DNA of 64,000 bases from Haloarcula sp. CBA1129 (lineage in GTDB: Archaea > Halobacteriota > Halobacteria > Halobacteriales > Haloarculaceae), in NCBI RefSeq assembly GCF_008729015.1, contig NZ_RKSM01000001.1, positions 3,038,001 to 3,102,000 on the forward strand. The letters run 5' to 3'. The translations under genes and the position numbers were made by a program. This document shows positions 58,338 through 61,676 of this stretch, in pieces (position 1 is the stretch's first letter; every line of letters starts with the position of its first letter). The notes under the pieces were generated by a model. That model ran no database searches. It had not been told where the DNA came from and was given only the letters and a program-made list of their open reading frames with translations.

Positions 58338-59483
58338 ATGTCCGACGACCTCAAGAAGGGACTCGAGGGTGTCATCGTCGCCGAGTCCGAACTCAGCGTT
58401 ATCGACGGCGACGCTGGCAAACTCGTGTATCGGGGGTACACCATCGAGGACCTCGCGAAGGGTGCCAGCTACGAAGAGGTGCTGTACCTGCTCTGGCACG
58501 GCCACCTGCCGAACCGGGACGAGCTCTCCGAGTTCAAGGAGGCGATGGTGGACGCACGCGACGTGGACGACGACGTTATCTCGACCGTGCGACAACTCGC
58601 CGAGGCGGACGAGGACCCGATGGCAGCGCTCCGGACCGCGGTGTCGATGCTCTCGGCGTTCGACCCTGCGCCCGAGGACGCCGAGCCGACCGACGAGACG
58701 GTCAACCTCGAAACGGGCCGCCGCATCACGGCCAAGATCCCGACTATCATCGCGGCCTTCACTCGCATCCGCGACGGCAAGGAGCCCGTCGAACCCCGCG
58801 ACGACCTCGACCACGCGGCGAATTTCCTCTACATGCTCAACGGCGAGGAGCCCGACGACGTACTTGCCGACGTGTTCGATCAGGCGCTCGTGCTCCACGC
58901 CGACCACGGCCTCAACGCCTCGACGTTCTCGGCCATCACGACGGCGTCGACGCTGTCGGACATCCACAGCGCGGTCACCTCAGCTATCGGGACGCTGAAG
59001 GGACCGCTCCACGGCGGGGCCAATCAGGACGTTATGGAGATGCTAAAGGAAGTCGACGACGCCGAATCCGACCCGCTCGACTGGGTCAAGAACGCCCTCG
59101 ACGAGGGCCGCCGCGTCTCCGGCTTCGGCCACCGCGTCTACAACGTCAAGGACCCGCGCGCGAAGATCCTCGGCGAGCGCTCGAAGGAACTCGGCGAGGC
59201 CGCCGGGACGCTCAAGTGGTACGAGATGTCGACCACCATCGAGGACTACCTCATGGAAGAGAAGGGACTGGCCCCCAACGTCGACTTCTACTCCGCGTCG
59301 ACGTACTACCAGATGGGCATTCCCATCGACATCTACACCCCCATCTTCGCGATGTCCCGCGTCGGCGGCTGGGTCGCCCACGTCTTCGAGTACATCGAGG
59401 ACAACCGCCTGATCCGCCCGCGCGCCCGCTACGTCGGCAAGAACCCCGACGAGACCACGTTCGTGCCGCTTGAGGAGCGGTAA
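58338..59483 (+). CDS. citZ: Citrate synthase
   Basis: A 381-residue type II citrate synthase condensing oxaloacetate and acetyl-CoA. Active-site motifs are ADHGLNASTF, PLHGGANQDV, GFGHRVYNVKDPRA and the Asp in NVDFYSAS. It begins MSDDLKKGLEG. Its last 80 bp are repeated, with silent changes only, at 59647-59726. It is followed by a hairpin-plus-T-run terminator. Central metabolism, cytosolic. Confidence 0.95.
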   Translation: MSDDLKKGLEGVIVAESELSVIDGDAGKLVYRGYTIEDLAKGASYEEVLYLLWHGHLPNRDELSEFKEAMVDARDVDDDVISTVRQLAEADEDPMAALRTAVSMLSAFDPAPEDAEPTDETVNLETGRRITAKIPTIIAAFTRIRDGKEPVEPRDDLDHAANFLYMLNGEEPDDVLADVFDQALVLHADHGLNASTFSAITTASTLSDIHSAVTSAIGTLKGPLHGGANQDVMEMLKEVDDAESDPLDWVKNALDEGRRVSGFGHRVYNVKDPRAKILGERSKELGEAAGTLKWYEMSTTIEDYLMEEKGLAPNVDFYSASTYYQMGIPIDIYTPIFAMSRVGGWVAHVFEYIEDNRLIRPRARYVGKNPDETTFVPLEER

Positions 59484-59492
59484 GAAACCGTC

Positions 59493-59519
59493 CCGAGTGC
59501 GAGCGTAGCGAGCACTCGG
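59493..59519. terminator. Stem-loop with T-run after citrate synthase
   Basis: CCGAGTGC-GAGCGTAGCGA-GCACTCGG is a perfect 8-bp stem with an 11-base loop, immediately followed by tctttttcgcc. It begins 9 bp after the stop codon. The same architecture is found at 59944-59970 in a second cassette. Several further palindromes follow at once (59533-59559, 59563-59586, 59605-59621). Confidence 0.6.
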
Positions 59520-59586
59520 TCTTTTTCGCCACCGAAAGACTCGCTTCGCTCGTCTTTCGAGCCTTGCTTCACTCCGTTCAGCAAGA

Positions 59587-59640
59587 CCACGTTTTTGCCG
59601 TGAGCGATGGCCGCAGGCCATCCGAACGGGAAAAAGGTGG
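59587..59640. repeat. Palindromic cassette A (CCACGTTTTTG ... AAAAAGGTGG)
   Basis: A 54-bp element bounded by ccacgtttttg and aaaaaggtgg, which are inverse complements with one mismatch, around an inner hairpin (gatggccgcaggccatc). Cassette B at 59981-60041 has the same ends with a different inner hairpin. The element is immediately followed by the duplicated tail of citrate synthase. Confidence 0.65.
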
Positions 59641-59646
59641 AGGGTG

Positions 59647-59726
59647 ACCGCCTGATTCGCCCGCGCGCCCGCTACGTCGGCAAGAACCCTGACGAGACCA
59701 CGTTCGTGCCGCTTGAGGAGCGATAG
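59647..59726 (+). pseudogene. Duplicated 3' tail of citrate synthase
   Basis: An 80-bp copy of 59404-59483, offset by 243 bp and thus in the same frame. Only four positions differ (atc/att, ccc/cct, cgg/cga, taa/tag), and all are silent. It cannot be expressed alone as a citrate synthase. It has no ribosome binding site or start codon and is separated from the gene by several palindromes. Confidence 0.85.
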
Positions 59727-59943
59727 GTCCGTACCGCTACTGTTCGGCTGAAGAGTGGATTACTGACGGCCGTGAGCGCGTTTCATCGCGCGAACCGGGG
59801 CAGGGCAGGGCGGCCAGCATCCGGCGGCGACGCCGCCGGTTCCCGGAATCAGCACGAGATTCATTTCTTGTCGAGTCTCTCTAAAATCGGGCTCTACGGT
59901 AACGGACACGTAGTGACTGTCCGCGAACGAAGTGAGCGGTTCA
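59727..59943. other. Gene-free interval between citZ tail copy and cassette B
   Basis: No convincing gene. A minus-strand ORF (59760-59984) yields 34 residues after an internal Met (MNLVLIPGTGG...) with odd Cys/Pro content; it has no promoter and overlaps the palindromes, so it is not counted. A small palindrome gtccgcgaacgaagtgagcggt occurs at about 59919-59940, again with the GAACGAAGTGAGC centre common in these cassettes. Confidence 0.5.
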
Positions 59944-60041
59944 CCGAACGCGAGCATAGCGAGCGTTCGGCCTTTTTCGCCCACGTTTTTGCGCGGGGGT
60001 TGAGGGCGCGTAGCGCCCGAACCCCCCGTGGAAAAAGGTGG
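59944..60041. repeat. Palindromic cassette B, abutting the potassium-channel gene
   Basis: Contains CCGAACGC-GAGCATAGCGA-GCGTTCGG (59944-59970; same 8-bp-stem, 11-base-loop design as at 59493), cctttttcgcc, then ccacgtttttg (59981-59991), a large hairpin gggggtt...aaccccc (59995-60026) with an inner GGGCGC-GTA-GCGCCC, and gaaaaaggtgg (60031-60041). The element ends exactly at the stop codon of the minus-strand channel gene (tta at 60042). Confidence 0.65.
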
Positions 60042-61676
60042 TTAGCCAAACACCGACTTGAACCGCGTCACGCCGTCGTCGGTACCGGCGATGACGAGCT
60101 TGTCAGTCGGTTCGATAGTCACGTCGGGGCTGAGGTCGGTGATGACTGCGCCGTCGCGTTCGATGGCGACGACCGTACAGCCCGTTCGCGAGCGGACATC
60201 GGCCTCGCCGAGCGTCGTATTACCGAGGCCGTTAGCGGCGACGCGGATGACCTCGACTTGCTGATCCATCGAGATGACGTCCTCGTCTTCGAGAATTGTG
60301 GAGGCGAGCATCCGGCCGCTGACCGTCGACAGCGCGAGGACGTAGTCAGCGCCCGCCCGATACATCTTCTGGACGTTCTCGCTTTCCTCGGCACGGGCGA
60401 TGATTTCGACATCCGGATTGAGGTCGCGGATGACAAGCGTCGCGAACTCGGTGTCAGTGTCCGCCGACAGGGCGAGAATAACCGTTCTGGCTGCGCCGAC
60501 GCCGGCGTGTCGCAGGTCCTCTGGCTCCGTGGCGTCGCCGACGACATCGACGCCCGGCTCATCGGTCTGATCGAGTACCGTATGCGGCACTCCGGCGTTC
60601 GTGAGCGCCGACGTGATCGTCTGACCGACCTCGCCGGCACCGATAATTACCGTCTCTCCACGGCGGAAGCCACGCACGCTGGAGAGGGTCATCTCCTTGA
60701 GTTGTTCCAGTTGGCGCTCGGTCCCCGAGACCAGCAGGACCGTGCTCCCGTCGAGTTCGGCGTCGGGGTCGGGCGGACTCACGAACTGACCGCGGAACCA
60801 CGCACCGATGACGTTGACACCGGTTTCCTCGCGGATGCCACTGTCGGCCAGCGTCGTGCCGACGAGGTCGCTCCCGCGGTGGATCGGTAGTTCGGCGATG
60901 TCGAAGTCTTCGCCGATCTCTATCGAGTCCCCGAGCGTCGTCGAGACGCCGGTCGTGACCTTGCTCGCGAGGCTTTCGCCGAGCAGGCCACGCGGTGACA
61001 GGACGGCGTCGGCACCGGCGAGATCGTGATACTTCGCCCGGTCGGGCTCCTTGACGACGCTGACGGTCTGGACGGATTCGTCGACCTCGCGGGCGGTGAG
61101 GATTATGCTGGTGTTGACTTGGTCGGAGGCGTCGGCCACAAGCGCGCGGGCGGATGACAGGTGGGCCCGTTCGAGCCCGTCGACGGACTGCGGGTCGGCG
61201 TGAATGACGTTGTACCCGTCTTCGTAGAGGTTGTTAGCCCGGTCACGGTCCGGTTCGACGATAACGTAGTTGACGCCCCACGTGTCGAGTTCGGTGACAA
61301 GCGTCTCACCGCGGGGGGAGAACTGACAGATGACGACGTGGTCGCTGAGATCGTTCTCGACCGTGTTCGGGGCTGTCGTCTCCATCGCCTCTTCGAACAG
61401 CGGAAACAGCAACACCGGCAGCGCGAGGAAAATGAGCACGACGCCGGTGATGTCCATCACGATGACGAGCAGCCGCATCTCCGTGGTGCTCCACGGGGCG
61501 TCCGAGCCATATCCGGTTGTGGTGAACGTTTCGACCACAACGCGAAGCGACCGAAGGAACGGCTGTGGGTCGTTTTCGAATGCCGCCATGCCGTAGTCGT
61601 ATGCGAACGCATACCCCAGAATGATGCCGCCAAGCGCGACGATATACACCAGCGTCCGTCGCAGCCAGGTATCCAT
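60042..61676 (-). CDS. Potassium channel with tandem RCK (TrkA-N/TrkA-C) domains
   Basis: A 544-residue 2TM K+ channel. The first membrane segment spans about residues 8-28. The pore loop follows with selectivity filter TTTGYG (52-57), and the second segment is at about residues 70-95. Two RCK units follow: TrkA-N DHVVICQFSPRGE (about 110-235) plus TrkA-C, then a second TrkA-N beginning TVIIGAGEVGQTITSAL (about 345-470) plus TrkA-C. Fits NAD- or Ca2+-gated archaeal channels of the MthK type. It maintains the high internal K+ of the salt-in strategy. Upstream lie two caacgctacc repeats. Confidence 0.93.
   Translation of the reverse strand: MDTWLRRTLVYIVALGGIILGYAFAYDYGMAAFENDPQPFLRSLRVVVETFTTTGYGSDAPWSTTEMRLLVIVMDITGVVLIFLALPVLLFPLFEEAMETTAPNTVENDLSDHVVICQFSPRGETLVTELDTWGVNYVIVEPDRDRANNLYEDGYNVIHADPQSVDGLERAHLSSARALVADASDQVNTSIILTAREVDESVQTVSVVKEPDRAKYHDLAGADAVLSPRGLLGESLASKVTTGVSTTLGDSIEIGEDFDIAELPIHRGSDLVGTTLADSGIREETGVNVIGAWFRGQFVSPPDPDAELDGSTVLLVSGTERQLEQLKEMTLSSVRGFRRGETVIIGAGEVGQTITSALTNAGVPHTVLDQTDEPGVDVVGDATEPEDLRHAGVGAARTVILALSADTDTEFATLVIRDLNPDVEIIARAEESENVQKMYRAGADYVLALSTVSGRMLASTILEDEDVISMDQQVEVIRVAANGLGNTTLGEADVRSRTGCTVVAIERDGAVITDLSPDVTIEPTDKLVIAGTDDGVTRFKSVFG

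Follow-up and report, generated by a model that had tools for sequence, protein, structure and literature searches.

How does the end of a central metabolic gene come to stand twice on the same DNA, and which of the two ends is the older? The question is raised by citZ of Haloarcula sp. CBA1129, an intact citrate synthase gene (58338–59483, forward strand; an open reading frame with homology to annotated citrate synthases) that ends CGG TAA and lies in a window of 64,000 nucleotides, the whole stretch of DNA analysed here. A repeat search matched the end of the gene, tail 1 (59397–59483), to a second copy on the same strand, tail 2 (59640–59726; VEGDRLIRP...EER TAG): 59397–59482 and 59640–59725 are 93% identical over 86 bp at a spacing of 243 bp, the homology extending slightly leftward into GAGG (59397–59400 and 59640–59643), with mismatches adjoining the junction. 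This confirms what an earlier note on this DNA had seen, that 59404–59483 recurs at 59647–59726 at an offset of 243 bp with four mismatches in 80 bp. The note had called all four differences silent, which holds for ATC/ATT, CCC/CCT and CGG/CGA; the fourth, TAA/TAG, exchanges one stop for another. The repeat was the sole one found when the 64-kb window was scanned at all offsets from 70 to 1200, and a chance origin is ruled out, since its best stretch is identical at 59 of 60 positions and block-shuffled windows reached at most 37 of 60. Tail 2 does not lie in a conserved coding gene, its stop-to-stop frame comprising just 40 amino acids, and Rfam gave zero family matches across 59300–60100.

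The two tails are separated by a gene-free insert of about 160 bp, made up of a terminator and a hairpin. The predicted terminator (T, 59493–59530, forward strand) is a palindrome, CCGAGTGCGAGCGTAGCGAGCACTCGG, followed by TCTTTTTCGCC; the hairpin (R, 59587–59640, forward strand) is an imperfect palindrome, CCACGTTTTTGCC...GGGAAAAAGGTGG, with a conserved G.G mismatch. Both fold far better than shuffled sequences (z = -4.2 for T and -5.9 for R), as does R2 (z = -7.4), the hairpin of a second predicted T–R terminator (59944–60041, with T2 at 59944–59970 and R2 at about 59980–60041) that adjoins the stop codon of a convergent gene (60042–61676). A palindromic module of 56 bp (59531–59586, forward strand) lies between T and R and is evidently optional, being missing at the same place in Har. 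vallismortis (L032); it was also seen, as a nested optional module, in other T–R copies of the window genome. The junction is the right foot of R, GGTGG, at which the truncated tail 2 directly starts; behind tail 2 lies D (59727–59943), the original downstream DNA. T–R, whose T runs (those of T and of R) lie 3′ of the citZ stop codon, is most likely a terminator, to judge from sequence, because T runs ending in C are an established intergenic termination signal in Haloferax volcanii (PMC7237163). The signals described there resemble T–R in having T runs and then C, an optional hairpin and a position behind genes; the passages that describe them treat them as termination signals alone, with no mention of linked gene-end duplications.

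Which tail, then, came in? In close relatives without the insert (G014, G025, G030 and G020), citZ has a single tail that reads CGA-TAG-GCCC... and runs directly into D. It is tail 2 with D that matches this gene end, and not tail 1, which reads CGG-TAA-GAAACCG and is followed by T and R, this T matching the one that follows citZ in Har. salina at 91–93% identity over 45 bp. The earlier note had proposed that the old tail was stranded distally and the proximal one arrived with the insert, and had suggested other Haloarcula genomes as the place to look; the comparison supports it, with tail 2 and D as the old end and tail 1–T–R as the incoming piece. The direction rests on the match of stop codon and D to the relatives rather than on presence and absence alone, because a clean tail–tail deletion would yield the same single-tail state. 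In homology-facilitated illegitimate recombination, known from bacterial transformation, one side of the incoming DNA is homologous and the other forms a non-homologous junction. The citZ locus is alike in its homologous and seamless gene body, in the R/tail junction without extended homology and in the partial duplication of the homologous segment, and the recipient state that such a reading calls for is visible in the relatives without the insert; it is unlike in that the illegitimate end has a constant position across many genes, at the base of hairpins from a single family.

R is not peculiar to citZ. Hairpins of this kind (CCCACGTTTTTCG...CGAAAAAGGTGG) are dispersed in Haloarcula-group genomes, and were surveyed in the sampled genomes by an exact 11-mer, GAAAAAGGTGG, which defines most of the sample. 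In the window genome this R end occurs ten times, and behind four of these, citZ included, the end or start of the adjacent gene is repeated. Over the 99 R ends, which come mostly from the genus, a repeat of the adjacent gene's end or start lay within 25 bp in 41 cases, the corresponding figure for random positions within these loci being 13 of 297. Among the 88 hairpins with both feet, 38 had a truncated end of the neighbouring gene to their right, the copy beginning 0–8 bp past GGTGG in nearly all cases, and none (0 of 88) had the mirror-image junction, in which the left foot of R is joined to the end of the convergent gene. Other T-tract sites (TTTTTC) had such a repeat in only one of 84 cases (Fisher p about 2e-12 against R, a value that is overstated, as orthologous loci are not independent). 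The feet of R are conserved and the terminal stem was present in all 40 of the hairpins folded from the family of 88. Of these 88, 26 lie at most 6 nt from a convergent gene's stop codon, with CCACCTTTTTC directly after the stop. Duplicated gene ends beside R belong to about two dozen unrelated gene families, further taxonomic families within the order also provide examples (L225, L248 and L249), and their length runs from about 24 bp to more than 150 bp and up to a whole tail–T–R unit. We found no description of hairpin-linked gene-end duplications in the open-access literature, which is weak evidence of novelty.

Some copies of R have settings of their own. At three loci (L156, L209 and L230) the hairpin appears to abut the 3′ end of a tRNA gene. 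Tandem units of gene end, T and R, each 157–186 bp long and with up to four R ends, occur at L160, L161 and L163 (all in G005) and at L162 (in G011), L160 and L161 looking like two copies of one array within their genome. At L165 (G004 C2:150500–152800), several R ends in both orientations accompany one gene end, in direct and inverted copies. A regular reading frame leading from R into the tails was considered and rejected: a common frame was seen at three loci, and it was absent, by eye, in Halosimplex and Halarchaeum.

The citZ arrangement itself, compared here with one genome per species, is patchily distributed. The same junction (VEGD/VEGE-RLIRP, or near it) is found in Har. vallismortis (G031), Har. 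salina (G021), SYNS111 (G018, which has three citZ tails), G016, G011 and Halosimplex; G022 and Halarchaeum have shorter tail copies with other breakpoints, and the duplication is present in G034 as well. Occupied genomes are spread over the citZ tree, and some of them stand beside an empty sister (G018/G005 and G016/G019). The earlier note had held that an identical arrangement with the same differences in distant genera would speak against a recombinational origin; the arrangement does recur in Halosimplex, but with that lineage's own sequence, so that this is only half the case. In G022 (L025) the breakpoint is shifted by about 50 bp towards the stop relative to the other Haloarcula-group genomes, which suggests an independent event or a later deletion. 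The citZ end also takes inserts that bear genes: in Halorhabdus salina (L085, 7146–7946), as in G067 and G069, about 800 bp lie between two citZ tails (in L085 a repeat of 158 bp at 96% identity), without an R hairpin and with a Fic/Doc-like open reading frame (HIFEDGNKRTAW) and a small acidic one.

How have the two tails remained so similar? The earlier note had taken the silent differences as a sign that each copy was under selection. Both copies were probably once real gene ends, since their stop codons or last residues often differ and yet are valid (citZ, TAA/TAG; L121, TAG/TGA; L125, TAA/TGA; L157, TGA/TAG; L171, TAG/TGA; L201, LDS-stop/LE-stop). However, the tails evolve in concert. Paired citZ tails within a genome are 93–100% identical in the Haloarcula group (83–100% with Halosimplex and G034 included), compared with 71–85% for citZ tails between most species; at a second locus, M, the lineage variants VADVPE, IADVPE, IATVPE and IAQVPE are each common to both tails of a genome. 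At both loci, then, the copies are more alike within than between species, although homogenisation is not universal, tail 2 of locus M having decayed in G003, G024, G008 and G031. In all the insert-free relatives compared, the two codons just before the last two of citZ read CTG GAC. In the sister G031 this pair stands in tail 1, and tail 2 reads CTT GAG; the window has CTT GAG in both tails, tail 1 still ending CGG TAA; and among the compared relatives CTT GAG is otherwise confined to the stranded copies of the window genome and its sister. This is most simply read as the stranded copy having overwritten codons of the live gene, apparently changing the third-last residue of citrate synthase from D to E; conversely, tail 1 of G031 may have been restored from elsewhere. 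Efficient gene conversion is reported for H. volcanii and polyploid haloarchaea in two studies (PMC8223754, PMC11276520). Selection on each copy independently is thus not supported, and the silent-only differences are better explained by two alleles and gene conversion, because the tail pairs evolve in concert and the stranded copy apparently overwrote live codons. A tally of silent and non-silent differences over the loci serves as a guide only, some of the loci having been given a wrong frame in it.

What is observed comprises the architecture of the locus, the exact junction at the R foot and its repeated occurrence beside many unrelated genes, together with the agreement of tail 2 and D with insert-free relatives and the concerted evolution of the tails. 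On balance, we think it probable that citZ is one of the sites occupied by a terminator cassette that is dispersed. A piece comprising gene end, T and R would have been joined to the corresponding end of the recipient's copy of that gene, so that the gene body is now followed in turn by the incoming tail, T, R, the old tail and the old downstream DNA. As a first step, the cassette may move between strains by ordinary homologous recombination, which the copies of the target gene's end on either side of it would allow, and it may be lost cleanly by recombination between the tails; gain and clean loss together would explain both the patchy distribution and the way in which T–R travels with the gene tail. 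Deletions mediated by direct repeats are frequent in Haloquadratum (PMC3119063). As a second step, gene conversion would keep the stranded tail coding-like and could rewrite the live gene. The third and least certain step, to which we hold only tentatively, concerns the founding junction: a copied or broken donor strand ending at the foot of R may have been joined inside the recipient's tail, in a hairpin-limited form of homology-facilitated illegitimate recombination. A strand end at a folded hairpin is suggested because the fixed point is the base of the R stem, and on the right side only. Alternatively, the founding junction may have come from the circularisation of a protected transcript or DNA end, from slippage, or from an as yet hypothetical nuclease.

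Might the insert instead have entered each gene only once? One ancient insertion for each gene, handed down vertically and never spreading from strain to strain, its tails evolving in concert and repeatedly recombining to leave a clean deletion, seems to us a serious possibility that stops short of being probable. It is well suited by the junctions: that of citZ is the same in most occupied Haloarcula-group species and nearly so in Halosimplex, which counts against cassette spread in that one ancient insertion with many losses would also produce it, and that of locus M, which we followed through the genus, is identical in all 14 occupied genomes of 30. Losses alone can, moreover, give patchiness. 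However, many of them would be required at citZ, and the T of G000 and G031 is similar to the one at citZ in Har. salina, a more distant species, nearer relatives being empty.

Local tandem duplication of tail–T–R, through replication slippage at the hairpin and with the second T–R mostly lost later, is unlikely. The arrays at L160, L162 and L163 and the near-complete copies at L197 and L164 speak for it, and a right boundary at the hairpin foot would be suitable; indeed, local duplication explains the near-complete tail–T–R tandems at L160, L162, L163 and L197 as well as the cassette does, which counts against the latter. The citZ relatives, however, have tail and D joined directly, and because their stop codon and D are found with tail 2, it is two different alleles that seem to have been joined here.

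It is more doubtful still that R, or T–R, is a small mobile element with long and variable target duplications, comparable to the SMRs and MITEs of Haloquadratum. R is a dispersed inverted-repeat element (88 hairpins), of about 42–134 bp and lying between direct repeats, and the SMRs, MITEs and PATEs of Haloquadratum walsbyi are likewise short, dispersed, non-coding and bounded by inverted repeats, with movement that is unexplained (PMC3119063). SMRs, however, cause no duplication of their targets, which are IS605-type elements and PATEs (PMC3119063), whereas R is a putative gene-end terminator tied to truncated gene copies, 38 of the 88 hairpins having a gene-end duplication. Nor are these duplications of fixed length and identical, as beside a MITE: they range from about 24 bp to whole tail–T–R units, and the homology of the copies usually ends at the stop codon, the stops themselves often differing (TAA/TAG, TAG/TGA, TAA/TGA). 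Simple target-site duplication was rejected on account of the differing stops and of homology that ends at the stop, and a good many copies of R are predicted terminators that border on the stop of a convergent gene. R at L122, L140, L149 and L172 is accompanied by a duplicated gene start (of a MTLDVGMLGYRFMGKAH-type protein) and not by an end, which is awkward for a view of R as a terminator only and counts against the cassette.

REP/BIME repeats and the attC sites of integrons stand at the 3′ ends of genes as imperfect hairpins, their feet being conserved and their middle variable. R shares all of these features, but its feet (CCAC/GTGG) are by eye unlike attC core sites, and the fragments beside it are gene ends, not whole cassettes as in integrons.

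Elements such as e14 in icd, and those with tRNA-targeting integrases, integrate into gene 3′ ends with replacement of the tail. The earlier note's comparison with such attachment sites, of which the locus would now be a remnant, finds some favour in the new tail supplied, the old tail stranded, the direct repeat as boundary and the repeated use of the citZ end (including the Halorhabdus insert), but is very improbable, as the inserts of this type read at citZ are short (here less than 200 bp), non-coding and devoid of integrase or any other recombinase gene linked to the hairpin–tail junction, several breakpoints occur in citZ itself in place of a fixed attachment sequence, and the same R foot adjoins many unrelated target genes at variable distances from their ends. 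As to outside sources for the citZ tail, a viral one was rejected, as the phage records searched yielded nothing beyond weak matches, from Listeria and Staphylococcus, and a plasmid one likewise, the annotated matches being citrate or methylcitrate synthase genes.

If the cassette reading is taken to its full extent, R would represent an undescribed class of portable gene-end cassettes, in which a terminator between two copies of a host gene's end spreads to the same gene in other strains, is lost without trace and edits the C-terminus by gene conversion, new ones being made by a dedicated process at the hairpin foot; we consider this somewhat unlikely as a whole. What the junctions themselves indicate is a recurrent recombination process with a defined endpoint, one R foot being joined to a truncated neighbouring gene end in more than 40% of the sampled copies, in polyploid organisms known for gene conversion. 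They thereby offer natural and countable material for the study of illegitimate recombination in archaea. Fragments of this kind are to be reckoned with behind genes in annotation and in phylogenetics, and the D-to-E change at the third-last residue of citrate synthase points to a probable way for a dead gene fragment to edit a live central gene.
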